NCBI RefSeq assembly: GCF_000714435.1
Contig: NZ_JJMW01000063.1
Span: forward strand, 1-64,000
DNA length: 64,000 bases
Source of the DNA: Exiguobacterium alkaliphilum 12/1
Lineage (GTDB): Bacteria; Bacillota; Bacilli; Exiguobacteriales; Exiguobacteriaceae
Direction of reading: 5' to 3'
The translations under genes and the position numbers were made by a program. The notes under the pieces are model-generated. The model did not search any database. It saw only the letters and a program-made list of their open reading frames with translations, and had not been told where the DNA came from. Position 1 is the first letter of the stretch. Each line of letters starts with the position of its first letter. Shown one piece after another: positions 6,164-43,216 of this stretch.

Positions 6164-8248
6164 TCACATCGGTACTTCGAGTTGTTTCGTTTCTTTATTC
6201 GACAACGTGTAAGTGACGACGTAGTTGGTCCCGACAGCCTTGACGCTCGCGCTCGTGATCGTAGTCTTCGATTGGTCGAGCCGGATGAGCGTCACGTAGC
6301 GGACGTCCTTCCCGGTATTGTACGAGATGACTTGCGGGCGCGGTTTCCATTCATAGTCGCGGACGGCGACGAAGCTCGAGCTCGTACGCATCGAGGTGCC
6401 GTTCAAGTTCAACTGCATGAGCTGTACCGTCCGTCCGTTCGAATCGCCATACAACACGTTTTGAGTCCCTATCGAACTCCGGAGGAGCGTCAGTCCTTCG
6501 GCGAGGTGGAACCGCTGCACGTATTTCGCCGCAATCGGAGAAGTGACCTTGTCGTAGACGACGAGCGTCTGCGCTTTGTCATAGACAATCGTCCGACGGT
6601 GGGTCGCCCCTTTTCCAATCAATTTGCTCTCGCCAATCGCAAGATGGGTCGCCCCATTATCCCGTGTCGTCACGATGCGGCTCTTGCCGCGCATCGCCGC
6701 GCTCAAATCAAGGTTTTCCCCATCCCGGTGGACGGTGTTGTGCGCCTCGACCCCGAAGACGCGCTGTCGCTCTGGGCGGTTCGTATAGCCGTAGCGTCCG
6801 GTCTCGATGATGAAGTCACGCCCGAGCCCATACACGTCAATCGTCAAATCGTCCGCGTGTTTGTGCGCACTCGAATGATAGCCGGCCGTCATCATGACCT
6901 GGGTCGCGTTCGAGAAGGAGCGTGGGGGATTGGCCCAATACTCGCGCATGAAGCTATACTGTGTCCCGACGCGTTTGACGAGATGTCTCGGCATGACGCC
7001 CTCTTGCCCACGACTGACCGCATAGGCGAGCTCTGGATAGTCGGCCGTGTTCGGGATGATGTTCATCGTCCGGATCGCGCCGGACGTGTCCCCGAAGATC
7101 GGGAGCGTCCCGTTCGGTTTCACCATGTACGTCAATTGCTTCGGCATGTCCTCCATGTTCGCCATGCTTGGCGGGAGGACGAACCGGTTCGCCTCGGCCC
7201 AGTCGAGGAAGCGGGCGAACGTGTGGTACATATATGCCTGGTATCCCGGCGAGTGCTCGAGATGGACGGCGTCACGCGAGATGCTGTGCGTGATTTGTCG
7301 TTGAAGCCGTGTGTTCGCGAACGTCTGCCATGCTGCGCTCCGATCAAACTCAGGGAACGTCTGGGCGATGGCGGTGAGCGCCATGTCTTGGAAGATGCCG
7401 TGGTTATGGTACTCCTTATAAAAGCTCGGTGTGGCGAGGAGCGTGCCATGGTCATACAACGTCTTCAACATGAGCCCAGTGAACGCCGGGTCTTTATTCA
7501 GCGACGTCTTTTTATAGACGTCCCAGAAGTTCAACAGATGAAACGCACGAATCGAGGTGCCGTGGTCGTTATAGGGCCAGCGGTACTGTTTGTAGTTCGC
7601 GATGGGGTGCGCCTTCGTCCAACTCTTGATGAGCCGTTCCCCATAGCGCAAATAGGCAAGGTCCCCCGTCGCGTTGTAGGCCTGCGTCAACTGGTTGAGC
7701 GTCGTCAAATAATGGATTTGGAATGGATACGAGTTGCTGTCTGATGCCGGTATACCGGTATGCCAGTTGAACGTGTCGACGTTTTTGACCGTGAGGCGAA
7801 ACGGCGCGGTCGGCACATACCAGTCACCGCGCAACGCCCGGTCCGCATATTGAATCGCCCGTGTGTTGCCGAGCTGCTCATATTCATAAGGAACATGAGA
7901 GCGAGTCGTCTTCATGTAATCGTGGGCGAGGGCGCGCGTGTTCGGCTGTTGGAAGCTCGATGCGGTCAAAGGCCTCGCGACAAGCAGTTTCGCCTCGCTC
8001 TTTTTCAGATATATTTTCTTATTGTTCTCGACGGCCTCGAAATACCATCCGGAAGGTCGGATGACGTTGTAGCGTTTCGTCCCGGATAGTTGGGTTGTCG
8101 GTGTGATTTTACGTTGTCGCAATTCGTGAACGGTCGCGTTCGGAACTGAACGGATATGGAAGTATGGATCGACGCTTGCGTCGGCTGTTGACGGTGCCAT
8201 CGTGATGAGGAAGCTGCCGATTATCAGACTTGTGATTGTTTTTTTCAT
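6164..8248 (-). CDS. Secreted heparinase II/III family polysaccharide lyase, copy 1
   Basis: A 694-residue protein with signal peptide MKKTITSLIIGSFLITMAP. Residues about 27-95 form an SH3-like region (YNVIRPSGWYFEAVENNKK). Residues 100-390 are an alpha-toroid of the lyase type, and the C-terminal half is the heparinase II/III beta-sandwich. Family hallmarks seen are HNHGIFQDMAL (N282, H283), LEHSPGYQAYMYH, AHKHADDL (H462, H464) and a later HNTV. Members cleave uronic-acid-containing polysaccharides by beta-elimination outside the cell; the substrate here is unknown. It is one of three paralogues in the window, the others at 14285 and 16487. A possible target is the uronate-type polymer made by the cluster at 25964, which is inference. 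Confidence 0.85.
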   Translation of the reverse strand: MKKTITSLIIGSFLITMAPSTADASVDPYFHIRSVPNATVHELRQRKITPTTQLSGTKRYNVIRPSGWYFEAVENNKKIYLKKSEAKLLVARPLTASSFQQPNTRALAHDYMKTTRSHVPYEYEQLGNTRAIQYADRALRGDWYVPTAPFRLTVKNVDTFNWHTGIPASDSNSYPFQIHYLTTLNQLTQAYNATGDLAYLRYGERLIKSWTKAHPIANYKQYRWPYNDHGTSIRAFHLLNFWDVYKKTSLNKDPAFTGLMLKTLYDHGTLLATPSFYKEYHNHGIFQDMALTAIAQTFPEFDRSAAWQTFANTRLQRQITHSISRDAVHLEHSPGYQAYMYHTFARFLDWAEANRFVLPPSMANMEDMPKQLTYMVKPNGTLPIFGDTSGAIRTMNIIPNTADYPELAYAVSRGQEGVMPRHLVKRVGTQYSFMREYWANPPRSFSNATQVMMTAGYHSSAHKHADDLTIDVYGLGRDFIIETGRYGYTNRPERQRVFGVEAHNTVHRDGENLDLSAAMRGKSRIVTTRDNGATHLAIGESKLIGKGATHRRTIVYDKAQTLVVYDKVTSPIAAKYVQRFHLAEGLTLLRSSIGTQNVLYGDSNGRTVQLMQLNLNGTSMRTSSSFVAVRDYEWKPRPQVISYNTGKDVRYVTLIRLDQSKTTITSASVKAVGTNYVVTYTLSNKETKQLEVPM

Positions 8249-8503: not shown

Positions 8504-8902
8504 ATGGCGAGAAGTCGGCATTCGATTGAACAAAAACTGAGTGCGCTACGTATGATGGAAGAAGGGACATACACCTGGAAGGAAATCGAGGAGGCCCATC
8601 ACGTCTCTGAGAATACCCTCCGGGTGTGGAAAGTGAAATTCGATACCGGTGGGATCGATGCGTTGAAGGAGTCGAAGACATGGAAACATTACACCAAGGA
8701 ACAGAAGATCGCGGCCGTACGTGACTATCTCGATGGGTTCACTAAAATGGAGGTTCTCTCCAAATATCATATTAGTAGTTGGTCGGTTCTATATCGGTGG
8801 ATCAAGAAGTATACTGGTCATAGCGAGTTAACAGAGCATCGACAACGCCCCGATCGAGGGCTTTTGGGGCACCCTGAAAGTCGAGATGTACTACCTGCGT
8901 GA
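8504..8902 (+). CDS. IS3-family transposase OrfA (helix-turn-helix), altered C-terminus
   Basis: A 132-residue reading frame. Residues 1-115 are a typical IS3-family OrfA: two helix-turn-helix units (SALRMMEEGTYTWKEIEEAH and KIAAVRDYLDGFTKMEVLSK) that bind the IS ends. From about residue 116 the frame runs into orfB sequence in the wrong frame, because the internal deletion joined orfA to the 3' end of orfB. OrfA alone cannot transpose, but it could still bind the element ends or affect full-length relatives elsewhere in the genome. Confidence 0.8.
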   Translation: MARSRHSIEQKLSALRMMEEGTYTWKEIEEAHHVSENTLRVWKVKFDTGGIDALKESKTWKHYTKEQKIAAVRDYLDGFTKMEVLSKYHISSWSVLYRWIKKYTGHSELTEHRQRPDRGLLGHPESRDVLPA

Positions 8903-11169: not shown

Positions 11170-11178
11170 CCTTGTTTC
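11141..11178. terminator. Hairpin at the 3' end of the recombinase gene
   Basis: CAAGGTCACCACG (11141-11153) pairs perfectly with CGTGGTGACCTTG (11162-11174). It lies 2 bases beyond the recombinase stop on the minus strand. The T tail is stronger on the plus strand. Confidence 0.75.
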
Positions 11179-12040
11179 AATCCAGATTGATTCGATTCAC
11201 GGCGTTCCTCAAATGGTTCTCCTTCACACGAATGTATCGTCGCGTCGTCTTCGGCTCGGCATGACCGAGGAGCTCGGACAGTGTCGTCTCCATGACGCCT
11301 TGGTCGTACAGATGTGTCGTGAAGGCGTGACGCAACGTGTGCGACGTGATCTCATAGCCGAGTACATCGGACGACGCTTCGGTCAGGTGGCGATTGATCG
11401 TCGTCTTACAGATAACGCCCCCGCGGCGGGACGGGAAGACGTAAGGGGACGGGCCATGACGCCGCTCTTCCTCCATATACGTCCGCATCACGTCGTAAAT
11501 GATGTCGTTCAACGGCACCGTCCTTGACTTGCCCGCCTTCGATTCATGGACGTGGACACGGCGTCGCTCCAAATCGAGCGCCTCCGTCGTCAACAGTCGG
11601 ACCTCGTTGATCCGCATCCCGGTATGGAGCTGGAATGTCAAAAACGTTCGATAGAGCGGGACGTCGATCGCCTCGATAATCGAGAGAATCGTCCGTGGTG
11701 TCGGGACGTCGGAAGGAAGACGTTCGTTTACTTTCACCCGCAAGCGGAGGAACGGATTATGTGCCGTCAACTGTTCGGTCATCGCCCAATCGTATAGGCC
11801 ACGGAGCGCGCTCAAGTAGTTATTGATGGTCACGGGTTGGCAGTTGTTCGCGCGGAGCGCATCGATATACGGCATGACGTCCTGCCTCGTCTTGAAATCG
11901 TCGAGCCGGGCGTCCTGCCCCATAATGGATAAGAACCGATCGAACTTATATCCCGCGTGGTCAATCGTGTTCTGTGCCTTCCCGGTCACATGTAAGTAGT
12001 GGAGGTGTCGTTTGACCGCCTCGTCGATGCGAAGATTCAT
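11177..12040 (-). CDS. Tyrosine recombinase (XerC/D-like integrase)
   Basis: Starts at the ATG at 12040, 8 bases after AAGGAG, in preference to the ATG at 12046; 287 residues. Residues 1-105 are a SAM-like core-binding domain and 110-287 the catalytic domain. The full catalytic set is visible: R143 in HTGMRINE, K168 in ESKAGK, H234 and R237 in HTLRHAF, H260 in LLGHAE, and the nucleophile Y269 in RRYIRV. It performs site-specific strand exchange on DNA. The gene follows the sigma-like gene by 12 bases (6 from the alternative start), with its ribosome binding site overlapping that stop codon, so the two are translated together. Likely substrate: the inverted repeats at 12541 and 12669. It is not an integron IntI, since the extra IntI-specific domain is not seen. 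Confidence 0.9.
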   Translation of the reverse strand: MNLRIDEAVKRHLHYLHVTGKAQNTIDHAGYKFDRFLSIMGQDARLDDFKTRQDVMPYIDALRANNCQPVTINNYLSALRGLYDWAMTEQLTAHNPFLRLRVKVNERLPSDVPTPRTILSIIEAIDVPLYRTFLTFQLHTGMRINEVRLLTTEALDLERRRVHVHESKAGKSRTVPLNDIIYDVMRTYMEEERRHGPSPYVFPSRRGGVICKTTINRHLTEASSDVLGYEITSHTLRHAFTTHLYDQGVMETTLSELLGHAEPKTTRRYIRVKENHLRNAVNRINLD

Positions 12041-12052
12041 CGTCATCTCTCC

Positions 12053-12493
12053 TTAATTGGTGTCTTCGCGGAGCATCCGGTACAGCTCGGCCCGGTATGC
12101 CCGGAGCCGGCTCGGTGAGTAGCCGAGCGTGTCCTCGGTGCCGCAAAGCATATGGCAGAGTAACGCGTAATGGCGGGGCGGTAAACTGTTTTCTTGATCG
12201 GATAACCATAGGTGAAACGGAAGTGGGGATTGCCCCGTTTCTGGGAGATGCTCGCACGTGACCTCATGGACGAGCGTCTTTTTTTGCTTTGCTCGATGGT
12301 TGAGGATTGCGCCGCGGATGCGGATGAAGCAATACGTCTTCGACAACGTCTTCTCACCGAGTAGGGCGCGCCATAGGGCGATACGTCCGGCTTGGGCGCA
12401 GTCGTCAATCTCGTTCGGGTGAATGTGGAGCGTGCGGATGACGTAATGGATCATCGGCTCCCAATCGTTTAGTTGTTCATTAAAGTCTGACAT
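12053..12493 (-). CDS. Sigma-70-like factor with short region 4
   Basis: A 146-residue protein. Residues 8-80 match sigma-70 region 2: WEPMIHYVIRTLHIHPNEIDD, then QAGRIALWRALLGEK and YCFIRIRGAILNHRAKQ, which is the core RNA polymerase and -10 binding part. The C-terminus (LPPRHYALLCHML ... GYSPSRLRAYRAELYRMLRE) resembles only the recognition half of region 4. It is similar in size to small alternative or phage-type sigma factors. It is the first gene of an operon with the tyrosine recombinase, and just upstream lies the inverted-repeat segment 12541-12683. It may direct polymerase to the recombinase operon or to nearby surface genes; the target is unknown. Confidence 0.75.
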   Translation of the reverse strand: MSDFNEQLNDWEPMIHYVIRTLHIHPNEIDDCAQAGRIALWRALLGEKTLSKTYCFIRIRGAILNHRAKQKKTLVHEVTCEHLPETGQSPLPFHLWLSDQENSLPPRHYALLCHMLCGTEDTLGYSPSRLRAYRAELYRMLREDTN

Positions 12494-12540
12494 CGTTCGC
12501 TACTCTCTCGCGCGCGTTCGGTTTTCCTAGGTGAATCCAG

Positions 12541-12683
12541 CATAATGGTTGTTATAAAGAAATGACGGTTAGGCGAAACAACGCCTAGCGCTTATTTCAT
12601 CTATACGGGACGTTATACATAACGCTTGGCCTGACGTAACGACGGGGATGGCGAGGTGTCAAAACCGCATAACAACCATTATG
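12541..12683. repeat. 143-bp segment bounded by perfect 15-bp inverted repeats (possible invertible switch)
   Basis: CATAATGGTTGTTAT at 12541-12555 is the exact reverse complement of 12669-12683. Inside are two smaller dyads: TAGGCG/CGCCTA (12570-12587) and CGTTAT/ATAACG (12611-12624). It lies between the sigma-recombinase operon on the left and a secreted-protein gene on the right. Perfect inverted repeats next to a tyrosine recombinase are the layout of fim-type phase switches, in which the segment flips and turns a promoter around. It could instead be an operator or an old attachment site. The rest of 12494-12817 shows no gene. Confidence 0.6.
12553..12581 (-). promoter_or_regulatory. Possible promoter for the sigma-recombinase operon, inside the inverted-repeat segment
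   Basis: On the minus strand TTGTTT (12581-12576) is followed after 17 bases by TTTATA (12558-12553), the -10 overlapping the left inverted repeat. It points toward the sigma gene at 12493. If the segment inverted, the same promoter would face the gene at 12818. The boxes are weak, so this is tentative. Confidence 0.35.
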
Positions 12684-12817: not shown

Positions 12818-13756
12818 ATGAAATGGAGCAAACAACTGATTGTCGTATTGATGACACTTGTTTTTGTGCTTAGTATGGGTCATACCAGCGAAGCATCAAG
12901 CCTGGAAAAACAATCGACTGCGAACCTACAAAAACAAATCAATGCCTTAAAGAAAGAAAACAGTGCATTGAAGAAAAACTTGGAAACCTCAAAAAAGGAG
13001 ATCTCGAACTTAAAAAAGAAAGTGACGAATGTCGAGAAAAGCAATAAATCTCTTACGGCTAAAATTAATGAGTACAAGAAATATGAAAAAGGAGTCAAAA
13101 CGAAGAGTGGGGTTGTAAAAAGCATTCGGGTGACAGAAAATCAAGCTGAGTTTTATTTAGACGGTCAGCGTCTTCTACCTACGGTGAGCAAAGGGAAGAC
13201 ACCACGCACGTTCGTATTTGATAATCAATTGTATGCACCGATTGAATCGGTAGGCAAAGCCCTACTAGGTGGACAAAAACCTACTACTTGGAATGCAACT
13301 AAACAAGCAATGTACTTTGGGATTGCTCCAAAAGGGAAAGTACAACCATTGACTAACAATAATATTTTCGATTACTCGAGTATAACTGTAGATGATAGTA
13401 GAGATGGAAACGATATTAGTTTTAAAATTCTAGAAGATACTTACTATCCATCAAATGTAGTTCAAGGAAGTTGGGGATCTTGGGTTCAATATGCGCTTAA
13501 AGGGAACTATCAATCAATCAAAGGGAAATATGCAATACCGCAAAACAGATTAAATGATGATAATGAATCTGCATTAAGCTTCCACAGTGTAGATTCTTAT
13601 GGCAATAAACAACTGATTCAAAGGTACAATATAAAGAGTGGGGACCCATTCGTGAATGTCGACGTCGATCTCAGCGGAGTTCAATACTTACAAATCACTT
13701 TGGACAGAAATTATTCAATTTTCCATAATATCACACTTGAAAGTTTAATCGATTAA
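12818..13756 (+). CDS. Secreted coiled-coil protein with stalk and NPCBM-like domains
   Basis: A 312-residue protein with a GGAGG ribosome binding site and signal peptide MKWSKQLIVVLMTLVFVLSM. Residues 28-90 are a Lys/Glu-rich coiled coil (LQKQINALKKENSALKKN and onward). Residues about 98-170 (RVTENQAEFYLDGQRLLP, FVFDNQLYAPIESVGKALLG, WN) look like a copper-amine-oxidase N-terminal type stalk domain. The C-terminal 130 residues (YYPSNVVQGSWGSWVQYAL, LSFHSVDSYG, VDVDLSGVQYLQITLD) resemble an NPCBM carbohydrate-binding module. Probably a wall or glycan-binding surface protein. It starts 134 bases from the inverted repeat, so it is the natural candidate for a switched gene; this is inference. 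Confidence 0.8.
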   Translation: MKWSKQLIVVLMTLVFVLSMGHTSEASSLEKQSTANLQKQINALKKENSALKKNLETSKKEISNLKKKVTNVEKSNKSLTAKINEYKKYEKGVKTKSGVVKSIRVTENQAEFYLDGQRLLPTVSKGKTPRTFVFDNQLYAPIESVGKALLGGQKPTTWNATKQAMYFGIAPKGKVQPLTNNNIFDYSSITVDDSRDGNDISFKILEDTYYPSNVVQGSWGSWVQYALKGNYQSIKGKYAIPQNRLNDDNESALSFHSVDSYGNKQLIQRYNIKSGDPFVNVDVDLSGVQYLQITLDRNYSIFHNITLESLID

Positions 13757-14244: not shown

Positions 14245-14284
14245 TTACAAATGAAATCCTTTTAGAATGGTGAGGTATTACAAC

Positions 14285-16372
14285 ATGAACCGATTAAATA
14301 AATCAATTGCCTCGGCACTGCTCGGTGGAACACTTATCTTAGCTCCACTCGCGGCCGAAGCGAACTCAGACTTCAACGTCCGGGTCGCGCCGAAGACGAC
14401 GATCCATCAGATGAAAGACAAGAAGGTCGTCCCGCTACAGACGGTGAACACGACACGCGAATATCGAATCGTCCGTCCGTCCGGTTGGTATTATTTAGCG
14501 ATGTCCGGCGGGAAGCCAATCTATATCAAGAAGAGTCAAGCTCAAGTCGTCCCGGCTCGCTCTTTGACGAAAGCACGAATCTCGTCGCCGGCGAACCGGC
14601 TCTTAATTCACGATTATATGAGACAGACGCCCGGCCACGCCCCTTACGAGTATGACCGGTTGACGACGGATCAGGCGCGACAGTTCGCAGACCGAGCGCT
14701 CCGCGGCGACTGGTACATCCCGACGGCGCCGAACCAGTTGCTCGTCCCGAACATCGACACGTTCAATTGGCATAAGGACGTCCCGGCGGTCGACAGCACG
14801 TCGTATGCGTTCCAGCTCCACTATTTCACGGTGCTCAACCAACTGACGCAAGCGTATAACAAGACCGGAAACCGAGCGTATCTTCAGTACGGGGAGCGAA
14901 TCATCAAGAGTTGGACGAAGGCGCACCCCGCAGCAAACTATAAACGGCTCCGATGGGGGTACAACGATCAAGGGACGGCCATCCGCGTCTTCCACCTGTT
15001 GAACTTCTGGGACGTCTACAAGAAGACAACGCTCCATAAAGACCCGGCCTTCACGGAGCTCATGTTAAAGACGATTTATGAGCATGCCGAGATTCTCGCG
15101 GCACCGGACTTCTACAAGGCCCGCCACAATCATGGCATCTTCCAAGACATGGCACTCACGGCCATCGCTCAAAGTTTTCCCGAGTTCGACAAGAGCGCAG
15201 CCTGGCAGACGCTCGCGAACAATCGGCTCCAGACACAAATCGCGCACAGCATCTCGTCGGACGGGATTCACCTCGAGCACTCGCCGGGCTACCAAGTATA
15301 CGTCTATCACACGTTCGCCCGTTTCTTGACGTGGGCCGAGGCGAACGGCTTCACCTTGCCATCTCGCATCGAGGACATCAAAGAGATACCGGAACAGCTC
15401 ACGTATATGGTGAAACCGAACCGGACGCTCCCGATCTTCGGCGACACCGCGGGCCACCTCCGGGCGATGAACATCATCCCAGGGACGGCCGATTACCCGC
15501 ATCTCGCCTATGCGGTCAGCGGTGGGACGGAAGGGGTCGAGCCGCCACTTCTGACGAAACAGCTCGGGAGCCAGTACAGCTTCATGCGCGAATATTGGGC
15601 CAATCCGCCTCAAGCTTTCTCTGGGGCGACCCAGGTCATGATGACGGCCGGCTATCATTCGAGCGCGCACAAGCACGCCGATGATTTGAGCATCGACCTG
15701 TACGGCCTCGCCCGCGACTTCATCGTCGAGACGGGTCGTTACGGCTACACGAACCGTCCCGAGCGGAGAGAAGTGTTCAAGGTCGAGGCGCATAACACGG
15801 TCCACCGCTTCGGCGAAGGGCTCGATTTGAGTCCTGACATGGTCGGCAAGAGTCGGATTGTCTCGGTCGAGGACCTTGGTGCGACGAGCGTCGCCATCGG
15901 CGAGAGCGAGCTGATCGGGAAGGGTGGGGTGCATCGACGCACGCTCGTCTACGACAAGGCGAAGACGCTCGTCGTCTATGACAAAATCACCTCGCCAGAG
16001 CCGGACATGTTCGTTCAACGCTTCCATCTCGGCGACGGGTTGACGCTCTCGCGCGGTTCGATTGAACAGAACGACGTCACGTTCCGCGATGCGACGCGCC
16101 GTACGATTCAACTCATGCAACTTGAGACGGACGAGGACTCGTATATGGCGATTCGACCGAGTCACTTGTCGGTCCGTGACTTCGAATGGAAGCCGCGTGA
16201 GCAGGTCGTCTCGGTCGAGTATGGCGATGACGTGCGATACATCACGTTGATTCGCATCGATCGTTCGAACACGTACATCGAACAAGCTGATATTGAAGAA
16301 CGTGAGACCGATTACGTCCTCTCCTATACCGTCTCGAACGGAGAGACGGGTGAGATGACGATTCCAAAATAA
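14285..16372 (+). CDS. Secreted heparinase II/III family polysaccharide lyase, copy 2
   Basis: Starts at the ATG at 14285 (GAGG 8-9 bases upstream) in preference to the ATG at 14267; 695 residues. Signal peptide MNRLNKSIASALLGGTLIL with cleavage near AEANS. Same layout as copy 1: an SH3-like N-terminal region (YRIVRPSGWYYLAMSGGK), an alpha-toroid with HNHGIFQDMAL (N282) and LEHSPGYQVYVYH, and a beta-sandwich with AHKHADDLSIDLYGLARDF and HNTV. It is expected to cleave a uronate-containing glycan outside the cell. It is followed by a strong terminator and then copy 3 in the same orientation, so each copy has its own promoter. Confidence 0.85.
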   Translation: MNRLNKSIASALLGGTLILAPLAAEANSDFNVRVAPKTTIHQMKDKKVVPLQTVNTTREYRIVRPSGWYYLAMSGGKPIYIKKSQAQVVPARSLTKARISSPANRLLIHDYMRQTPGHAPYEYDRLTTDQARQFADRALRGDWYIPTAPNQLLVPNIDTFNWHKDVPAVDSTSYAFQLHYFTVLNQLTQAYNKTGNRAYLQYGERIIKSWTKAHPAANYKRLRWGYNDQGTAIRVFHLLNFWDVYKKTTLHKDPAFTELMLKTIYEHAEILAAPDFYKARHNHGIFQDMALTAIAQSFPEFDKSAAWQTLANNRLQTQIAHSISSDGIHLEHSPGYQVYVYHTFARFLTWAEANGFTLPSRIEDIKEIPEQLTYMVKPNRTLPIFGDTAGHLRAMNIIPGTADYPHLAYAVSGGTEGVEPPLLTKQLGSQYSFMREYWANPPQAFSGATQVMMTAGYHSSAHKHADDLSIDLYGLARDFIVETGRYGYTNRPERREVFKVEAHNTVHRFGEGLDLSPDMVGKSRIVSVEDLGATSVAIGESELIGKGGVHRRTLVYDKAKTLVVYDKITSPEPDMFVQRFHLGDGLTLSRGSIEQNDVTFRDATRRTIQLMQLETDEDSYMAIRPSHLSVRDFEWKPREQVVSVEYGDDVRYITLIRIDRSNTYIEQADIEERETDYVLSYTVSNGETGEMTIPK

Positions 16373-16450: not shown

Positions 16451-16486
16451 TTTCAAGTGATGAATGGAAATGAAGTGGGGGACATG

Positions 16487-18556
16487 ATGGAACGCTCAAT
16501 CTCAAAACACCTCGTCGCTCAGCTCACGACACGGGCGCACAGTGACTGGAACGCACGACTCGCACCTGGGACGATGGTGTACCAATTGAAAGGCAAGGCG
16601 GTCGTCCCGTATGAACGGACGAGCGAGACAACCGAATATCGTATCATCCGTCCGTTTGGGCGCTACACGATTGTCCGGTCACGGTCACGACAGTTGCTCG
16701 TACTGACATCGATGGTCGAGTTCGTCCTTGTCCGTCCCCTCACGAGAGCGAGAGCCGCGAACGGGTTGAATCGGGTGCTCCTTCACGACTATATGCGGCA
16801 GAAGGGAGCGTTGATCCCTTTTACATACGAACGCCTGACTGACGAACAGGCCATCATGTTCGCTGATCGTGCCCTCGTCGGCGATTGGTACATCCCGACG
16901 GCACCGCACCATCTGCGTGTCGAAGCAATCGAACGGTTCGATTGGGAGCGCGACGTGCCGGACGTCGACAGTAAGTCGTTCCGTTTCCAACTCCACTATT
17001 GGACGACGGTCAATCAGTTGACACGGGCTTATCGCACCACGGGTCGGATCGACTATATCGCGTATGCCGAGCGTATCGTCCGTAGCTGGACACGACAGTA
17101 CCCGATGTCTCAGGTTTCAAGAAATCGTGTCGCCTATGACGGGCACGGTACCGCCGTGCGAGTGTTCCATCTGATCGGATTTTGGGATGCGTTTCGACAA
17201 TCGGCGCTACATCACGACTCGCATATGACTGAGCACGTCTTGAACGTGGTGCATGACCATGCCGTGCTGCTAGCGTCACCAAGCTTTTACCGGGTGCGTC
17301 ATAACCACGGGTTGTTTCAAGACATGGCACTCCTTGTCATCGCCGAGACATTTCCTGAGTTCGAGGCGAGCGCGGACTGGGGGCGCGTCGCCCGAGACCG
17401 GCTCGACGAACAGCTCAAGGCGAGTCTGGCAGATGACGGGACGCACCTCGAGCACTCGCCGGGGTATCACGTCTATGTCTACCATACGTTGGCCCGCTTC
17501 ACGGAATGGGCCGAGTCGAACGGTGTCGGACTGCCTCGGCGCTTCGCTTTGATTCGGCGTATGCCTGATCGGCTAACCTACATGGTCAAGCCGAATCGGA
17601 CACTCCCGATATTCGGCGATACGAGCGGACAAATCCGTCCGTTCGATGCGATCCCGGGCATCGGTCACTACCCAGAGCTTGCCTATGCGCTCAGTGGTGG
17701 GACGGTCGGGGACCAGCCGAGCGAACTTGTACAGAAACTAGGGACACAGTACGCTGTCATGCGCGAGTATTGGGCGCATCCGAAGCGTCCGTTCAGCGAT
17801 GCGACCCATATCATGATGACGGCCGGTTATAACGGCTATGCTCATAAACACGCCGACGACCTCAGTATTGAGCTGTATGGTCTTGGTCGCGACTTCATCG
17901 TCGAGACGGGCCGTTACGGCTACACGGACCGGGAAGAACGGGCTCGTGCGTTACGGGTCGCAGCCCACAACACGGTCCATCGGCTCGGTGAAGAACTAGA
18001 CTTCTCGGTCGAACAAATCGGGCAGAGCGGAATCCTCTCCGTCGAGTCTAGTGGGAGAATGGCGATCGCCCATGGGATCAGTCGGCTCATCGGCAAAGGG
18101 GTGACGCATGAGCGTAGTGTCGTCTACGATAAGGCGCGCACGCTCCTTGTCCATGATCGAATCACTTCTCCCAATCCTGACCTGTTCGTGCAACGCTTCC
18201 ATCTCGGCGTCGGACTCGATCTCGTCGGGGGCTCGACCGAGGCGCGTGACGTCTTGTTCCGTGACGTGAACGGCCGTTCGATCCAACTCGTTCAGTTGAT
18301 GGGGGCGGAAGGTGCTTATATGGATATCGAGGCGAGCCATGTCGCGAGCCGTGACTTCGAGTGGAAGCCACGAAAGCAGGTCGTCTCGTTTGAATATGGC
18401 ACGGACATCCGGTATTTGACGCTCATCCGTCTCGATCGGACCGACAACCCGATTGTCGAGACCAAACTCGAACGACGTGACGAGATCGATATCGTCACGT
18501 ACTGGTTATCGAGCGGTACGAAACACGTCATTCGATTCAGTTCAGAAAACAATTGA
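16487..18556 (+). CDS. Heparinase II/III family lyase, copy 3, without signal peptide
   Basis: Start chosen at the ATG at 16487 (GTGGGGG just upstream; ATGs at 16484 and 16457 are alternatives), giving 689 residues. The N-terminus MERSISKHLVAQLTTRAHSD has no hydrophobic core, and the protein enters the shared domain about 9 residues earlier than copies 1 and 2, as if the middle of a signal peptide had been deleted. The catalytic blocks are intact: HNHGLFQDMAL (N273), LEHSPGYHVYVYH, AHKHADDLSIELYGLGRDF and HNTV. It may be cytoplasmic, exported another way, or on its way to becoming a pseudogene. Identity to the family is certain, cellular location is not. Confidence 0.8.
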   Translation: MERSISKHLVAQLTTRAHSDWNARLAPGTMVYQLKGKAVVPYERTSETTEYRIIRPFGRYTIVRSRSRQLLVLTSMVEFVLVRPLTRARAANGLNRVLLHDYMRQKGALIPFTYERLTDEQAIMFADRALVGDWYIPTAPHHLRVEAIERFDWERDVPDVDSKSFRFQLHYWTTVNQLTRAYRTTGRIDYIAYAERIVRSWTRQYPMSQVSRNRVAYDGHGTAVRVFHLIGFWDAFRQSALHHDSHMTEHVLNVVHDHAVLLASPSFYRVRHNHGLFQDMALLVIAETFPEFEASADWGRVARDRLDEQLKASLADDGTHLEHSPGYHVYVYHTLARFTEWAESNGVGLPRRFALIRRMPDRLTYMVKPNRTLPIFGDTSGQIRPFDAIPGIGHYPELAYALSGGTVGDQPSELVQKLGTQYAVMREYWAHPKRPFSDATHIMMTAGYNGYAHKHADDLSIELYGLGRDFIVETGRYGYTDREERARALRVAAHNTVHRLGEELDFSVEQIGQSGILSVESSGRMAIAHGISRLIGKGVTHERSVVYDKARTLLVHDRITSPNPDLFVQRFHLGVGLDLVGGSTEARDVLFRDVNGRSIQLVQLMGAEGAYMDIEASHVASRDFEWKPRKQVVSFEYGTDIRYLTLIRLDRTDNPIVETKLERRDEIDIVTYWLSSGTKHVIRFSSENN

Positions 18557-28970: not shown

Positions 28971-29001
28971 CAATCACTACGGTTTACACGGAGGAAATAA
29001 G

Positions 29002-32000
29002 ATGGAATGGCAGAAAAAAGCACGTCGCGCTGCCTATTTAGGGGTGCAACGTTCGAAACGGCTTGGGCGAAAAGTGCTCAAGAAGACGAGTCAACAAAAA
29101 GGGCAAGCATGGCGTGAAGTCGCACCGGGGTGGTTTACCCGCTCTTCACATATTTATATGGAAGGGACAGATTTTACAGTCACAAACGATGAGCCGATCG
29201 TGCTGACCTACCGTCCAGACGGGAAAAGTGACGTCGTCGCCATCGATTCTTTGCTCGGTGAGAATATGAAGTCATTTACATCGACGCTTCGAATCAAGTC
29301 ACGCGACAGCGTGGAACCGACGCTTCGTCTTGAAGTGTACCGTAAAGGTGGGCGTACCCGACAGATCACCTTGCAGAACGGACAGAAAGAAGAAGTCGCC
29401 CTCGGAATGGGAGAAAAGATTCTTCGTGCTCACCTCGATATTCATGGATCCGGTACGTTCAGTATGATCGACATCCGAATCGGGGAAGCGTCGATTTGGC
29501 ATGGAGAAGGTTCGACATCAAACGTAAAAGATGAAGATTTCGCATTTATGTTACCACTCGATGAGTCAAACCTCCGTTCGATGACACCGGAACGCACGGT
29601 CGCCAGATGGGAAAGTGACCGGCTCGTCTTGAGCGCAGAAGGGAATCAATATGCGCATTATGGTGTCGGAGAAGCTGAGCTTCCTCATGTGGACACGGGA
29701 AGAGGGATTGACTTCTCGACCGGGGATATGGACGATGACTTATATCGTTTCTATTTCAAAGGAGAAACGAACGGCGGGGCCGATGCCTCGCTGTTTGTCG
29801 CGACTTATACGAAAGCAGGACGAGATAAGTTGGTTGAAATCCCGCTTGGCTTGAGTGGGATTATCCGGATTGCACCGTCACATCGTTCGCTCCGTTATTT
29901 CGTGCGCGTAAATGGTCAGGGGGAGTTGCGCGACTTAGCGCTTGGGATGATTCGAGAGAAGAGCGTCCGCCAAGAAGAACTGTTTTCATTGAAGCCATCG
30001 ATGTGGACGATTCCTGCTCCAGATGTGATCAAGTTGAAGTCCAAGGCGGACCAGCTCGTCATCGACTTGAAAGGAGAAGATGATAAGCGACGGTATATCT
30101 CTTATGCTGAGATGAACAACAGTTTTAAAAAATTACCCGTCGAATACCCGTTTGAGGTGAAAGCGAACTGTCGTTATCGCGTGACGGTCGATGGCTCTGC
30201 TGGAGAAAATGCGAACGTCGTCCTCTACTTGGTCGCCTATTCAGAGACTGAGCGTCAACTTATGCAACAAGTTCAACTTGGTAGTGAGAAAGTGTTTTAC
30301 TTCGATCGCGGTATTCGTTTCCTTCGCTTTGCGCTTCGTGTGGATGGGAGCGGGGAAGCTGTCATTGACCGCATCCGTGTCGCAGAAGAACTTGTCAGTG
30401 ACGGTCGTGAACATCCGGACTTTCTTGATGTCCGTGAGGCCCGTCTCTTTGCTCAGCGACCAAGAGAGCTGCACGAATTGAAAGTTGCTGCCATCTTTGA
30501 CGAATTCACAATGGCTTCTTACGAGCCGGAATGCCAACTCATTACCTTCACACCAGACAATTGGCGGGCAACGCTACTCGATGAGCAGCCGGACGTCTTA
30601 ATCGTCGAGTCTGCTTGGAAAGGGAATCGTGGGGCATGGGAAAAGAAAATCGTCAAATATGGCACGAACACATGGGAAGAGCTCGACGACCTTCTGTCTT
30701 GGTGTCGCCATCAAAATATTCCGACCGTATTTTGGAACAAAGAAGACCCGATTCACTATGATCGTTTTATCGAAACGGCCCAGCGCTTTGACTATGTGTA
30801 TACGACCGACTTGAATCGTGTCCCGGACTATAAACGTGATTGCGGTCACGAACGCGTGGATGCTCTACCGTTTGCAGCCCAACCGAAAGAGCATAACCCG
30901 ATTCGCCTACCGGGCACGCGTGAGCCATACGCCTGTTTTGCCGGATCGTATTATGCGAATCGACACGAGTCGCGGAAAGCCGACATGGATCGGTTGTTTG
31001 CGGCGGCGGATCAATATGGCCTCGCGATTTATGACCGAAACTATGCCATCAATCAACGAGGAGAGAGCGACCAGCTCCAATTTCCTGAACAGTTCCGTCA
31101 CTCGATTCGCGGAAGTCTGAAATACAATCAAATCGCCAAAGCGTATAAAGGGTTTAAAGTCATGTTAAACGTCAACTCGGTGAACGATTCACCGACGATG
31201 TTTTCTAGACGCGTGTTCGAAGGTCTCGCCTGTGCGACGCCAGTCGTCAGTACGCGCTCGATTGGGGTCGAGGCGATGCTTGGGGACTACGTCTTCTTAG
31301 ATGATGGCGAGTCAGATTTGGATGAGACGTTCCGTCGTCTCATGACAGATGAGTCGTTTTATGAAGACGTCGCGATTGGCGGCATGCGTCATGTGTTGAC
31401 GTACCATACGTATACGCAGCGTCTCGCTAAAATCGTACAAGACGTCGGCATTCCATATCGGGTCGATCATGAAGAGGTCGCCGTGCTCGCGTTCGTCGCT
31501 TCGAAACAAGAAGCCGAAACGGCCGTCGCTCAATTCGAAGCACAGCGTTATCCGCATAAAAAACTGATTCTCTTCCTTGATAAGTTTGAAGACCACATCG
31601 ATGTATACAACACGTACAACACAGAATCGGTCTCGACATACATGCGAAGCTACTTGGAGCACTACACGTCATTGACAGAAATTTTGGAGCCGTTCGAGTG
31701 GGTCACCTATTTGAACCCGAATGACTATTACGGACCGGATTATCTATCAGACTACTTGCTCGCTTCCCGCTACGCGGAGGCGGACATCCTGACGAAAGCA
31801 GACTATTACTCTTATGAGGGCGTACTTCAAAAGCATGACCATGATGAATCGTTCCGTTACGTGTTCGATGCGATACCTTCTCGCTCGTTAATCAAGCCGT
31901 CGGCGCTACGTTTCGACACGGTTGATGCGGCACTACATCGTTTCCTTGCCGATGAGAGTTTGCGAGAACTTGCACGCTCGGGCAAACGGATGTTTAGTGT

Positions 32001-32070
32001 AGACCCTTATCAATACGTGAAAGATGGTGCCTCGATGGATGAGGCGTCAAGACAGGAGGTGACACGATGA
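29002..32070 (+). CDS. Giant glycosyltransferase with three N-terminal beta modules and a CgeB-like domain
   Basis: A 1022-residue protein with GGAGG before the ATG. Residues about 45-485 hold three similar beta-rich modules, each ending in a line of the type LRAHLDIHGSGTFSMIDI, LRYFVRVNGQGELRDLAL and LRFALRVDGSGEAVIDRI. Residues about 500-820 are a CgeB/Glyco_trans_1_2-type glycosyltransferase (PTVFWNKEDPIHYDRFI, DYVYTTDLNRVPDYKRD, FAGSYYANRHESRK, SPTMFSRRVFEGLACATPVV). The last 180 residues resemble a second GT-like fold. No membrane segment. It would act on the polymer in the cytoplasm, with the modules perhaps binding the growing chain. The stop overlaps the next start (ATGA). Confidence 0.8.
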   Translation: MEWQKKARRAAYLGVQRSKRLGRKVLKKTSQQKGQAWREVAPGWFTRSSHIYMEGTDFTVTNDEPIVLTYRPDGKSDVVAIDSLLGENMKSFTSTLRIKSRDSVEPTLRLEVYRKGGRTRQITLQNGQKEEVALGMGEKILRAHLDIHGSGTFSMIDIRIGEASIWHGEGSTSNVKDEDFAFMLPLDESNLRSMTPERTVARWESDRLVLSAEGNQYAHYGVGEAELPHVDTGRGIDFSTGDMDDDLYRFYFKGETNGGADASLFVATYTKAGRDKLVEIPLGLSGIIRIAPSHRSLRYFVRVNGQGELRDLALGMIREKSVRQEELFSLKPSMWTIPAPDVIKLKSKADQLVIDLKGEDDKRRYISYAEMNNSFKKLPVEYPFEVKANCRYRVTVDGSAGENANVVLYLVAYSETERQLMQQVQLGSEKVFYFDRGIRFLRFALRVDGSGEAVIDRIRVAEELVSDGREHPDFLDVREARLFAQRPRELHELKVAAIFDEFTMASYEPECQLITFTPDNWRATLLDEQPDVLIVESAWKGNRGAWEKKIVKYGTNTWEELDDLLSWCRHQNIPTVFWNKEDPIHYDRFIETAQRFDYVYTTDLNRVPDYKRDCGHERVDALPFAAQPKEHNPIRLPGTREPYACFAGSYYANRHESRKADMDRLFAAADQYGLAIYDRNYAINQRGESDQLQFPEQFRHSIRGSLKYNQIAKAYKGFKVMLNVNSVNDSPTMFSRRVFEGLACATPVVSTRSIGVEAMLGDYVFLDDGESDLDETFRRLMTDESFYEDVAIGGMRHVLTYHTYTQRLAKIVQDVGIPYRVDHEEVAVLAFVASKQEAETAVAQFEAQRYPHKKLILFLDKFEDHIDVYNTYNTESVSTYMRSYLEHYTSLTEILEPFEWVTYLNPNDYYGPDYLSDYLLASRYAEADILTKADYYSYEGVLQKHDHDESFRYVFDAIPSRSLIKPSALRFDTVDAALHRFLADESLRELARSGKRMFSVDPYQYVKDGASMDEASRQEVTR

Positions 32071-34250
32071 AAGCCAAGCAATTACGAGTGTTAGTGTATG
32101 GCGACGTCAACTTAAACTTGATTGACGGCTCGGCCATCTGGCTTACATCAGTCGTCCATATGTTAAACCAAGACCCGAACCTAGAAGTGGATGTCTTATT
32201 AAAACGTTCGATTGTCAAACCGGAAGTGACGGCCTCAATCAAACAGCTCGAACGTGTCAATTTTATTGACGTGTTCAGCGAACAGTCAACGAAGCGAGAT
32301 GAGCCGTACTATGAGAAGAAAGTGCTTCAGGCAGATGAAGCGGCCCAACTCATTCACGAGCTCGTTCAAACGAACGGGTACGATATGGCGTTCATCCGTG
32401 GTTTCCAACTCGCTTATGAATTGACGTCCTACCCCGACACGATGAAAAAGACATGGACGTACATCACCGACTTTACACACGACCATTCCGAAGCGTCACA
32501 AGAAGAGCTCGCTCGCTTGAAAACCATCGCAAGTCTTTCTGCTCGTATGCTCTGCCAGACAGCAGAAATGAAAGAGTACTTCGAGACATTCCTGGAAACA
32601 CCGCGTCCGTTTTTAATTCTGAATCCAATGATTCCGAATATGCGTGAGGAAGTACCGACGTTTAAACGGGAGGGCAAACAGCTCGTCTACACTGGGAAAT
32701 TCGCGCCACTTTGGTATTCGAGCGAAATCTTGGATGCGTTTCAACAAACGCGAAACAGAATGCCGGACGTCACGTTAAAAGTGGCAGGAGATAAGTTCAA
32801 CCAAGATCCGAATAACCCGAACTTCCGTAAAGAAGTGACGAGCCGTCTTCAAACAGACGAAGGAGTCGACTGGTTGAAAGGGATTCCGCGTGCCGAGGTT
32901 GAAACGTTAATCGCCTCGAGCGACATCGGATTGTCTTGGCGCCATCCTGATTTAGATGATAGCCTCGAGTTGTCGACGAAGCTGCTGGAATACGGCGCGC
33001 TCGGTAAACCGGTTTTGTTAAACCGTAACAGGATGCATGAAATGTTGCTCGGCTCGAGCTATCCGCTTTTCGTCAACTCAGAAGCGGAATTTATCGAAAA
33101 AGTTGAACTCGCATTTACACACCCTGCCATTTATCGAGATGCCGCAGAACGACTATATAATATGACGAAGTTTTATACGTTTTCGAGCACGTATGCGCGC
33201 TTACGTGAGGCGATTTGGGAAATGCGGCCGACGACGATTTTGTTCGCGGGCCACGATTTGAAATTCATCCGGATGTTCATGGAACGTTTCCAGGGAAATC
33301 CACGCTATCGTGTTCTCGTCGATGAGTGGGAAGGCCATAAAATTCACGATGTAAACCATAGTAAAGCATGCCTTGAAGCGGCTGACATCATCTTTTGTGA
33401 GTGGGGGCTTGGGAATGCGGTTTGGTATTCACATCACAAGTTACCCCATCAACGCCTCATCGTCCGGATTCATCGGCAGGAAAAAGAGACGCCATTCCCG
33501 AATGAGTATGAGCTCGATAATATCGACCGAATCATTCTCGTCTCGCCTTATATGCTTGAGGAGATGAGTCGCCTGTTCCACATCCCGCGTCATAAGATGA
33601 CGATGCTGTATAATGCTGTCGATGGAGACAAGTTGGATAAACCAAAATATGACAAAGCCTTGCCGTTCCATCTCGGGATGATTGGCATCAACCCGAAACT
33701 GAAACGTCCAGACTTAGCACTTGACGTATTGGAACGTTTACTCGCGCAAGATAACCGCTATCACTTGTTCTTTAAAGGGCATCATCCGAGTGAAGTATAT
33801 TGGATTGCGAAGCGGGAAGAGGAACGGACATATTATGAGTCGTTCTTACAACGGATTGAACAGCCACCTTTGAAAGGACATGTCCATTTCGATGGTCACG
33901 GGGATGACGTGGATACCTGGTTGCAAAAGATTGGCTTCGTGTTGTCAATGAGCGATTTGGAAAGTTTTCACCTTTCTCCGGCAGAAGGAATGGCCGCCGG
34001 CTCTTATCCGTTAATTCGGCGCTGGACAGGCAGCGAGACGATTTACCCTGATGAATTGCTCGTTAATAACCCGCTCGACGTCGTCGACACAATCTTGTCA
34101 TATCGCGATCGACCGGTCGAATTATTGGCGGCGACGGCACCGTTCCAGCAGTACGCCCGTAAGCACTTTGGGGTTAACGCCCTATTCCCGAAGATGGAAC
34201 GCATTATTTTAGGAGAAAAGCATGACAACGGTGGAACGGCATTGTCATAA
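32067..34250 (+). CDS. Double GT4 glycosyltransferase
   Basis: A 727-residue protein whose ATG overlaps the previous stop by 4 bases. Two GT-B halves are visible. Residues about 10-385 include TGKFAPLWYSSEIL, GIPRAEVETLIASSDIGLSW and LSTKLLEYGALGKPVLLNR. Residues about 390-720 include RIILVSPYMLEEMSRLF, KMTMLYNAVDGDKLDKP, GMIGINPKLKRPDLALDV and the end motif SDLESFHLSPAEGMAAGSYP, with the family's E-x7-E type site. No membrane part. Each half could make one linkage of the repeat unit. It is the last of the first glycosyltransferase group; the dehydrogenase gene follows after 128 bases with its own promoter. Confidence 0.85.
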   Translation: MKAKQLRVLVYGDVNLNLIDGSAIWLTSVVHMLNQDPNLEVDVLLKRSIVKPEVTASIKQLERVNFIDVFSEQSTKRDEPYYEKKVLQADEAAQLIHELVQTNGYDMAFIRGFQLAYELTSYPDTMKKTWTYITDFTHDHSEASQEELARLKTIASLSARMLCQTAEMKEYFETFLETPRPFLILNPMIPNMREEVPTFKREGKQLVYTGKFAPLWYSSEILDAFQQTRNRMPDVTLKVAGDKFNQDPNNPNFRKEVTSRLQTDEGVDWLKGIPRAEVETLIASSDIGLSWRHPDLDDSLELSTKLLEYGALGKPVLLNRNRMHEMLLGSSYPLFVNSEAEFIEKVELAFTHPAIYRDAAERLYNMTKFYTFSSTYARLREAIWEMRPTTILFAGHDLKFIRMFMERFQGNPRYRVLVDEWEGHKIHDVNHSKACLEAADIIFCEWGLGNAVWYSHHKLPHQRLIVRIHRQEKETPFPNEYELDNIDRIILVSPYMLEEMSRLFHIPRHKMTMLYNAVDGDKLDKPKYDKALPFHLGMIGINPKLKRPDLALDVLERLLAQDNRYHLFFKGHHPSEVYWIAKREEERTYYESFLQRIEQPPLKGHVHFDGHGDDVDTWLQKIGFVLSMSDLESFHLSPAEGMAAGSYPLIRRWTGSETIYPDELLVNNPLDVVDTILSYRDRPVELLAATAPFQQYARKHFGVNALFPKMERIILGEKHDNGGTALS

Positions 34251-34258
34251 AAATGTAA

Positions 34259-34288
34259 TTGCGTGGCGGATTTGTTCAAGAGTATAAT
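34259..34288 (+). promoter_or_regulatory. Internal promoter before the UDP-ManNAc dehydrogenase gene
   Basis: TTGCGT (34259-34264), an 18-base spacer and a perfect TATAAT (34283-34288), about 90 bases before the ATG at 34379. It would express the export and precursor genes as a separate unit. Confidence 0.65.
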
Positions 34289-34378
34289 GAGTATTGTTTT
34301 ATTGTCGAAACTGAAATAAAATGATGGACATGCGCTCGAATGAAATCGAGCATCAGAACATTTGGAGGTTACTACAAA

Positions 34379-35668
34379 ATGAAAGTATGTACAGTAGGTC
34401 TTGGATATATCGGGTTACCGACTTCGGCAGTTTTTGCAAATTACGGCGTGGACGTCGTTGGAGTCGATATTTCACAACACGTTGTCGATAAATTGAACCG
34501 CGGCGAAATCCATATCGAAGAGCCAGGTCTTGGCGAAATGGTAGCGGACGTCGTTGCAAAAGGGAAGTTCCGTGCGTCACTTTCACCAGAGAAAGCAGAT
34601 GCGTTCATCATCGCGGTACCGACACCGAACAATGATGACGAACACAAATCTTGTGACCTCACGTATGTGTTAGACGCGACGCGTAAAGTGTTGCCGTTCG
34701 TAGAAAAAGGGAATGTCATTATCGTGGAGTCGACGATCGCGCCACGTACGATGGACGATTTTGTCAAACCACTCGTTGAAGAAGCTGGATTCGTCGTAGG
34801 CGAAGACATTTTCCTCGTTCACTGCCCAGAGCGTGTTTTACCAGGACAAATCTTGCATGAGCTCGTTCACAACAACCGAATCGTAGGCGGCATCACATCA
34901 GCATGTGCTGAAGCTGGCGCACGCGTTTACGGCACGTTTGTTGAAGGGGAAATCGTCAAGACGGATGCGAAGACGGCAGAGATGTCTAAATTGATGGAAA
35001 ACACATTCCGTGATGTGAACATCGCCCTCGCGAATGAGCTTGCAAAAGTTTGTAACGACCTCGATATTAACGTGCTTGATGTCATCGAGATGGCGAACAA
35101 GCATCCTCGTGTCAACTTGCACAGTCCGGGACCAGGTGTCGGTGGACACTGCCTTGCTGTTGACCCGTACTTCATCGTCGCGAAGTCGCCTGACCTTGCG
35201 AAAATTATCAACTTGTCACGTGAAACGAACGTCTCGATGCCAGCTTACGTTGCCGATAACGTCCAAAAGCTAACAGACGGAATTGAAGCACCGAAAGTAG
35301 CAGTCTTTGGTGTGACATACAAAGGAAATGTCGATGACATGCGCGAAAGCCCAGCTGTAGAAATTGCTGAGTTGTTGCTTGATCGTGGCGTTAACATCTC
35401 TGTTCATGACGGACATGTTGAAAAATCGACGTCTAGCCGTTTTGATCTCGTATCAAAAGAAGAGGCACTTCAAGACGCTGACCTCGTGCTTGTACTCGTT
35501 GACCACAATGAGTTTAAGACACTCGATTTTGCTGAGCTTCAAGCGACAATGCGTCGTCCAATGATTTTCGATACACGTAACATTGTGAAACCAGCAGGTG
35601 ATGATGTGATGGTCGTGAACTACGGAAATCTATATAAATATACAAAGGAAACGAATCTCGTTCTTTGA
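34379..35668 (+). CDS. wecC: UDP-N-acetyl-D-mannosamine dehydrogenase (WecC-like)
   Basis: Start at the ATG at 34379, after TTGGAGG; an ORF from 34340 is only upstream extension. 429 residues. N-terminal Rossmann NAD site VCTVGLGYIGLPTSAVFA, then VESTIAPRTMDDF, the central domain, the catalytic cysteine C258 in GVGGHCLAVDPYF, and a C-terminal UDP-binding domain (VFGVTYKGNVDDMRESP). It oxidises UDP-ManNAc to UDP-ManNAcA with two NAD. With the epimerase at 37424 it would give the complete route from UDP-GlcNAc. The IAPRT and GGHCLAVDP forms favour the WecC type over UDP-glucose dehydrogenase, but a related amino-sugar substrate is possible. Confidence 0.85.
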   Translation: MKVCTVGLGYIGLPTSAVFANYGVDVVGVDISQHVVDKLNRGEIHIEEPGLGEMVADVVAKGKFRASLSPEKADAFIIAVPTPNNDDEHKSCDLTYVLDATRKVLPFVEKGNVIIVESTIAPRTMDDFVKPLVEEAGFVVGEDIFLVHCPERVLPGQILHELVHNNRIVGGITSACAEAGARVYGTFVEGEIVKTDAKTAEMSKLMENTFRDVNIALANELAKVCNDLDINVLDVIEMANKHPRVNLHSPGPGVGGHCLAVDPYFIVAKSPDLAKIINLSRETNVSMPAYVADNVQKLTDGIEAPKVAVFGVTYKGNVDDMRESPAVEIAELLLDRGVNISVHDGHVEKSTSSRFDLVSKEEALQDADLVLVLVDHNEFKTLDFAELQATMRRPMIFDTRNIVKPAGDDVMVVNYGNLYKYTKETNLVL

Positions 35669-35683
35669 TTCAGGTGAATGAAC

Positions 35684-36481: not shown

Positions 36482-36491
36482 GGAGGACACC

Positions 36492-37373: not shown

Positions 37374-37423
37374 CGCAACGGGAGGAGGAAGTACGTCTAT
37401 CGAGTAGACGTGCAAAACGACCT

Positions 37424-38524: not shown

Positions 38525-38604
38525 ATGGATGCAGAATGAGTTGTTTTGTGCGATGCACAGCAACTCTTTTCTGTATCGGCATTTTGAAATTGGAGGCGTT
38601 ATTT

Positions 38605-39081: not shown

Positions 39082-39117
39082 ACATCGTCAATTTTTAGGG
39101 AGAAAGGAACAGGGAAA

Positions 39118-40548: not shown

Positions 40549-40561
40549 GGGAGGCTGCATG

Positions 40562-41779: not shown

Positions 41780-41802
41780 CTCGTATAGAGAGGGGGAATC
41801 TT

Positions 41803-43194: not shown

Positions 43195-43216
43195 CAGTTC
43201 GTCTACTCATAAATTG

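Follow-up and report, generated by a model that had tools for sequence, protein, structure and literature searches.

The 143-bp segment at positions 12541-12683 of the window (the whole 64,000-nucleotide stretch of DNA that we analyzed) is likely a site-specific DNA-inversion switch. It stands in front of an operon for an ECF-like sigma factor and a tyrosine recombinase, and the recombinase is most likely the inverter. An earlier note on this DNA had proposed an invertible, tyrosine-recombinase-type switch beside this operon, and we find strong support for it: relatives show both orientations of the segment. The features of the locus, in window coordinates, are:

11177-12046, minus strand: tyrosine recombinase gene (289 amino acids), the presumed inverter, 6 nt downstream of the sigma gene
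12053-12493, minus strand: sigma factor gene (146 amino acids), with region 2 (from Pfam) and a C-terminal helical part that resembles region 4
12494-12545, minus strand: putative fixed leader/promoter flank of the sigma operon, from sequence conservation
12546-12551, plus strand: left recombination core TGGTTG, in the dif-like site GCATAA-TGGTTG-TTAT (left arm, 12541-12555)
12552-12672, no strand: invertible segment, 121 nt between the cores, in the orientation labelled F in this assembly
12571-12586, no strand: inner dyad AGGCG-N6-CGCCT, read from the sequence and alignment
12611-12624, no strand: inner dyad CGTTATACATAACG, read from the sequence and alignment
12673-12678, minus strand: right recombination core (CAACCA on the plus strand), facing the opposite way from the left site (right arm, 12669-12683)
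12818-13756, plus strand: gene for an exported coiled-coil/NPCBM protein (NPCBM, 4.7e-6), beyond the right site

The two 15-nt arms are 100% complementary, with 113 nt between them, which confirms the 143-bp segment with perfect 15-bp inverted repeats that had been described. The 64-kb window holds no other perfect inverted pair of 15-mers with a spacing of 60-400 nt, and 1 of 100 Markov-resampled windows held any such pair. Across the whole assembly, the exact 15-mer has no matches beyond the two arms. The inner 14-mer, with up to 2 mismatches, is found at 12 places in its own genome, versus 13 for the reversed control. We take these GCATAA-6 bp-TTATGC-like sites to be dif-like sites for a tyrosine recombinase, given their resemblance to such sites. 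Both of the previously described inner dyads are also there (12571-12586 and 12611-12624). Among six relatives with the same repeat, both dyads are found with one mismatch in G008 and G014, and they are absent from the other four.

We compared the locus across 38 genomes of the order, 19 from the window's genus, Exiguobacterium (g1), and 19 from the sister genus (g2). All 38 encode a homolog of the sigma protein and a related recombinase. The window's assembly has a second copy, for a total of 39 loci. At each of the 39, two inverted sites that share a 6-bp core lie upstream of the sigma gene, 52-63 bp from its start codon. The spacing between the cores is 119-146 nt. The core sequences are TGGTTG, TCGTTG, ACGCTA, TCATCG, TCATTG, GTAGAG, and GTCGAG, and the half-sites outside them are, for instance, GTATAA or GCATAA. 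The sigma and recombinase genes are linked at 38/39 loci; in G018, they are split over two contigs. In a search with the sigma protein, the match from Exiguobacterium sp. s122 was 96% identical and the match from E. algae was 62% identical. Between clades of one genus, the recombinases are 27-31% identical, versus 57-62% for the sigma proteins, and the recombinase clades in the tree track the core sequences.

Three contigs of the window's assembly, G000 (C12, C40, and C47, with loci L073, L074, and L075) are 100% identical over 17-20 kb, and this stretch holds a second, divergent copy of the sigma factor, recombinase, and switch. These may be duplicate contigs or may come from a second strain; the contamination of the assembly is listed as 7.58%. 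Because the second copy lies on three identical contigs, it gives no evidence of mixed orientation.

The positions that had been given for the sigma, recombinase, and NPCBM genes hold up, with Pfam matches to Sigma70_r2 (E = 2.6e-6, above the cut-off), Phage_integrase (1e-33), and NPCBM. Pfam had no match for region 4 in the 146-aa sigma protein. An AlphaFold model of modest confidence (pLDDT 69.3, from 3 sequences) has a second helical domain, with C-terminal helices at residues 93-103, 106-117, and 127-145. The nearest solved PDB chain to the sigma profile is FliA (E = 3.1e-4). Foldseek gave 225 PDB matches for the model, none of them at E ≤ 0.001, and the 50 of the 225 that were listed are all sigma factors or RNA polymerase complexes by title. 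In an alignment of 11 members, the invariant residues are Q34, L40, and W41, which we place, presumably, in the core-binding helix, and Y125, S126, R129, and R131, which fall in the C-terminal stretch YSPSRLRAY. From its sequence and its modelled fold, we predict that this protein is an ECF-like, two-domain member of the sigma-70 family.

For the recombinase, the best-scoring model is XerA/integron-integrase, though below the cut-off for that model, and the scores for XerC and XerD are also below their cut-offs. The catalytic R-K-H-R-H-Y residues of the recombinase are intact at 39/39 loci. Given its linkage and conservation, the co-encoded recombinase is most likely the protein that inverts the segment. 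At 18/19 loci from the sister genus, another tyrosine recombinase lies next to this one and converges with it (in G022, it is a 93-aa piece). These second recombinases (loci L078-L083 and L085-L096) lie ~1.2-2.1 kb downstream of the start of the sigma gene and form their own clade. By analogy, the two recombinases of the sister genus could be a pair like FimB and FimE.

The earlier note had named a single orientation in deep reads and in relatives as evidence against a switch; both orientations are found among the related genomes. A DNA search matched the segment to the strand opposite to its flank in G008, G014, and G012. In alignments of the inner segment, it is flipped relative to the window in G008, G014, G016, and G012 and has the window's orientation in G009 and G013. 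With each locus compared to its best partner in its own repeat clade, identities of the inner segment when flipped versus as is were 0.84 versus 0.53 for G008, 0.97 versus 0.52 for G002, 0.94 versus 0.54 for G010, and 0.91 versus 0.52 for G033. The orientation is clear at 38/39 loci. The exception, G024, was ambiguous (0.54 versus 0.58), and we excluded it ahead of the counts; after it, the weakest call is G021 (0.66 versus 0.55).

Both orientations are present in four of the five repeat clades, including the window's, and the two-member clade has one orientation only. The counts of orientations F and R, which are arbitrary labels within each clade, are 3/4, 3/5, 2/1, 2/0, and 13/5. Parsimony on the recombinase tree for the 38 loci gives at least 2+3+1+0+4 = 10 inversions; these counts are approximate because the branching of the tree is partly open. 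All of these comparisons are between species, with one assembly per species. We do not think that the opposite orientations are assembly errors, because the repeats are far shorter than the usual sequencing reads. By this comparison, the segment exists in both orientations between inverted sites that appear to be dif-like.

The fixed palindromes that adjoin the left site might suggest that the repeats are the operator of a repressor, instead of recombination sites. But the inner sequence is cleanly inverted at the repeats in many lineages. This refutes an operator as the sole explanation, and we consider that reading to be almost certainly wrong.

We compared the sequences on either side of the segment to see which side is the output. 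(G024 was left out of these comparisons.) Between the left core and the sigma gene, 45 nt were compared, with median identities within clades of 0.89-0.96. At 31-110 nt beyond the right core, the medians are 0.56-0.62, versus 0.57-0.64 for shuffled sequences, and 10/206 pairs exceed 0.7 identity. The 12 nt that adjoin the right core are partly kept (medians of 0.67-0.92), which matches the expectation for an outer half-site.

The fixed flank holds the palindrome CCTAGG, within TTCCTAGGT at 12524-12532, and a leftward −10-like hexamer, TATGCT, at 12539-12544, which overlaps the outer half-site for the recombinase. TTCCnnGGT..AG(T/C)ATA is found at this place in both genera and is altered in G005. 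The conserved palindromes of the fixed flank are CCTAGG or CCGCGG and, closer to the start codon, GAGCGCTC or ATATGCATAT. We suspect that these palindromes could be where a regulator binds.

Among the genes on the right are those for exported proteins, sugar epimerases, a ROK regulator, an HTH/IrrE-peptidase pair, and heparinase-like proteins, as well as an IS transposase and a glycosidase encoded on the opposite strand. They are mostly unrelated between species, and some face the switch. The NPCBM protein of the window has no relative among 20 clustered regions of the genus.

These observations bear on the proposal, from the earlier note, that the switch is bidirectional and fim-like, so that flipping would direct a promoter either at the sigma-recombinase operon or at the gene for a surface protein on the right. 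Several of the right-hand genes do encode exported or surface-type proteins, and, at 9/19 loci from the sister genus, a −35 box (TTGAAA) placed at the right end of the segment could pair with TATCCT outside the right site (TTGAAA-18-TATCCT, score 11.0). But the right-hand equivalent of the −10 box varies (TATCCT, TATCCA, TATCCG, TATAGG, TATGGG, and others), the gene on the far side varies by species and is sometimes on the opposite strand, and the sequence more than ~30 bp past the right site is mostly at the shuffled identity. We consider exchange with a surface protein to be quite improbable. Since the sigma flank is conserved, while the other side is at the shuffled level and has unrelated genes, we propose that the conserved output of the switch is the sigma-recombinase operon. 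Because the right flank is unconserved and the right-hand genes differ, the NPCBM protein appears to be an incidental neighbor, and its gene is probably not a conserved part of the switch.

The abrupt change of genes just outside the right site would also fit an integrase that captures variable cargo at attachment or attC-like sites, with flipping as a by-product, and the recombinase does score best with the XerA/integron-integrase model, though under its cut-off. However, a cassette would leave a third site, and near-matches within the window's own genome equal the reversed control. Near the loci, we found 6 extra sites with up to 3 mismatches, at 5/39 loci; the closest is in G023 (1 mismatch). 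Also, the sigma gene is kept in 38/38 genomes. We give the capture of cargo very little credence, and we rejected cassette capture or an integron as a candidate, with no convincing third site in the window's own genome or near the loci, where that single-mismatch copy is the closest. The copy in G023 (locus L080) is TATAAATAGAGTTATC, ~3350 nt to the right of the start of the sigma gene, and G027 has a degenerate copy with 3 mismatches at the same place.

The surroundings of the switch have other recurring features. In the window, it is surrounded by three paralogous heparinase II/III-like proteins, at 6164-8248 (minus strand), 14267-16372 (plus strand), and 16457-18556 (plus strand); the first two have family matches and all three were joined by clustering. 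The same heparinase-like cluster flanks the switch in G008, G014, G009, G016, G012, and G013. A lone transposase-like reading frame (HTH_Tnp_1/HTH_28) at 8504-8902 is consistent with an insertion-prone region.

Returning to the inversion switch, we asked how flipping might affect transcription of the sigma-recombinase operon. Outside the left site stands the fixed −10-like hexamer; with a sigma-A matrix of our own, we scored the −35 hexamers at a spacing of 16-18 bp from it and compared them to shuffles. Because of their relatedness, the loci do not count as independent. In one orientation, the sister genus has TTGAAA-18-TATACT at 11/19 loci (p = 0.002-0.009), TTGAAG at 1/19 (p = 0.027), and the weaker TTGCNN (TTGCAT or TTGCGC) at 6/19 (p = 0.08-0.13). 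Altogether, p is below 0.03 at 12/19 loci. G024 has no −35-like hexamer at the junction in that orientation. In the opposite orientation, p is above 0.3 at 15/19 loci, and three of the TTGCNN loci (G019, G020, and G029) have TTGCTT-16 with a similar p (0.09-0.13).

In the window's genus, a sigma-A-like promoter at the junction beats the shuffles in neither orientation (lowest p = 0.09). The best candidates in the genus are GTGCGA or GTGTCA-18-TATGCT, from the window's clade in orientation R (p = 0.09-0.26, not significant), and CTGAAA-16, from G007 (p = 0.09, not significant). Within the segment itself, a minus-strand promoter pair had been reported; a pair that faces the operon can be found, but it is weak (at best TTGACA-17-TTACGT, score 6.9). 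By weak analogy with the sister genus, the window's orientation (F) may be OFF-like.

Alternatively, the switch might act after initiation, as proposed for cwpV of C. difficile: a fixed promoter would read through the segment, and in one orientation a terminator or RNA structure would form. The RNA of the segment is predicted to fold strongly on both strands (z = −6.88 and −5.20), with much of this owed to the 15-bp arms alone. But this mechanism needs a promoter to the right of the right site, where the sequence is mostly unconserved, and the inner dyads have no run of T and are not conserved. No Rfam family matched the window at the gathering score, and we rejected a known RNA on that basis. 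Control after initiation therefore seems unlikely to us.

Instead, we favor the inversion of a promoter element. The co-encoded recombinase would exchange strands at the two cores, and one orientation would supply promoter sequence that drives the sigma-recombinase operon, while the other would supply none. The sigma factor would then be made in one phase only, which would switch a distant regulon. For most of the sister genus, we propose a composite promoter: a −35 box in one end of the invertible segment would lie 18 bp from TATACT, which is fixed outside the segment and overlaps the outer half-site for the recombinase. In the window's genus, the equivalent promoter might be weak, might depend on an activator, or might be read by the sigma factor itself.

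Because the recombinase lies downstream of the sigma factor, the ON phase would make the inverter as well, so we expect ON to be less stable than OFF. If OFF cells make no recombinase, then switching from OFF to ON would need basal expression or another recombinase. The second recombinase of the sister genus could serve for this, as FimB and FimE do. A broader proposal is that this is a self-contained flip-flop that is found across the order: a dedicated sigma factor is encoded in one operon with the recombinase, which inverts that operon's promoter element; the whole regulon is phase-variable; the ON state brings about its own loss; the −10 box also serves as an outer half-site; and the sigma factor diversifies far more slowly than the recombinase and its sites, which change together. 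We give this full proposal even chances of being correct.

We searched for the regulon of the sigma factor using the fixed-flank motif (TTCCnnGGT..AGTATA). This gave 38 matches in 32/38 genomes, versus 3 for the reversed control. Of these matches, 33/38 were the switch itself (counting the identical contigs of G000 three times) and 5 were elsewhere, and no convincing second site emerged across the 38 genomes. Four of the second matches (TTCCAAGGTTTCTTTCAGTATA) are at G006:C1:1364845, G007:C20:834363, G010:C21:76790, and G015:C21:71362. In G006, G007, and G010, a leftward reading frame of 183-184 aa starts 8-11 bp from the match, which is also inside a rightward open frame. The second match in G016 falls within a gene.

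About 16 kb to the right of the switch, at ~29000-43200 of the window, are glycosyltransferases, UDP-glucose dehydrogenase, UDP-GlcNAc 2-epimerase, and an MBOAT acyltransferase. These genes look like a surface-polysaccharide cluster and are a possible candidate for the regulon of the sigma factor. In the second clade of the genus (L051, L053, L054, L061, and L063), the genes to the left of the recombinase are often of polysaccharide type and point toward it; we named these, presumptively, by reading their sequences (UDP-glucose dehydrogenase and flippase, for instance).

We also looked for the same system outside the order. In a search with the sigma profile (348 genomes, cut-off of 1e-8), E fell from 5.5e-64 to 2e-13 outside the order. 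At 12 of the 32 weaker sigma loci outside the order, we examined ~3-4 kb in both directions, or as much as the contig provided, and found no homologous recombinase (E ≤ 1e-4). The sigma protein had no match among plasmids. Among phages, the recombinase matched 690 records, all at under 60% identity, and two exact patterns had no match among viral contigs.

DNA-inversion phase switches are already a known kind of system; what sets this one apart from the switches compared here is that the sigma factor and the recombinase are together in the operon that the switch faces. The sites resemble the familiar half-site pattern of XerC/XerD-dif: both systems have the tyrosine recombinase fold and GCATAA-6 bp-TTATGC-like sites. 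Unlike XerC/XerD-dif, there are two inverted sites for inversion, instead of the resolution of chromosome dimers. In the fim system of E. coli, the recombinases are encoded as separate genes. The fimS element is a 314-bp switch that is inverted by the tyrosine integrase FimB and drives the fimbrial structural operon (PMC9993118), and FimB and FimE are a pair of recombinases (PMC3911127). The switch described here is similar in having a short segment and tyrosine recombinases (two linked ones in the sister genus). Unlike fimS, it faces an operon made up of the recombinase and a sigma factor.

RecV of C. difficile is encoded elsewhere and serves several switches. As described in PMC7446863, RecV is a tyrosine recombinase, and the flagellar switch is a 154-bp segment with imperfect inverted repeats, upstream of the early flagellar operon that includes SigD. 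Within the sources covered, this is the nearest precedent we found for a phase-variable sigma factor. Its operon is flagellar; ours consists of the sigma factor and recombinase, with a single switch found. The cwpV switch of C. difficile, which controls a cell-wall protein, has its promoter outside the segment, and a terminator model was proposed for it; its distance from the start codon to the repeat is similar to that of our switch (PMC2784873). DNA inversion is rarely reported in Bacilli: PMC5903667 describes one signature in 22 samples, and its authors say that the samples from Bacilli were perhaps unsuited to detection. In the part of the open-licence PMC literature that our search covered, we found no inversion switch in Exiguobacterium and no recombinase-sigma operon that faces its own switch, which is not proof of novelty.

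The conserved output of this switch would be a transcription-initiation factor, not one surface protein, and the switch is kept in all 38 genomes of an order of Bacilli. If our proposal is correct, then this operon is a compact memory circuit, in which one inversion would re-program many genes.
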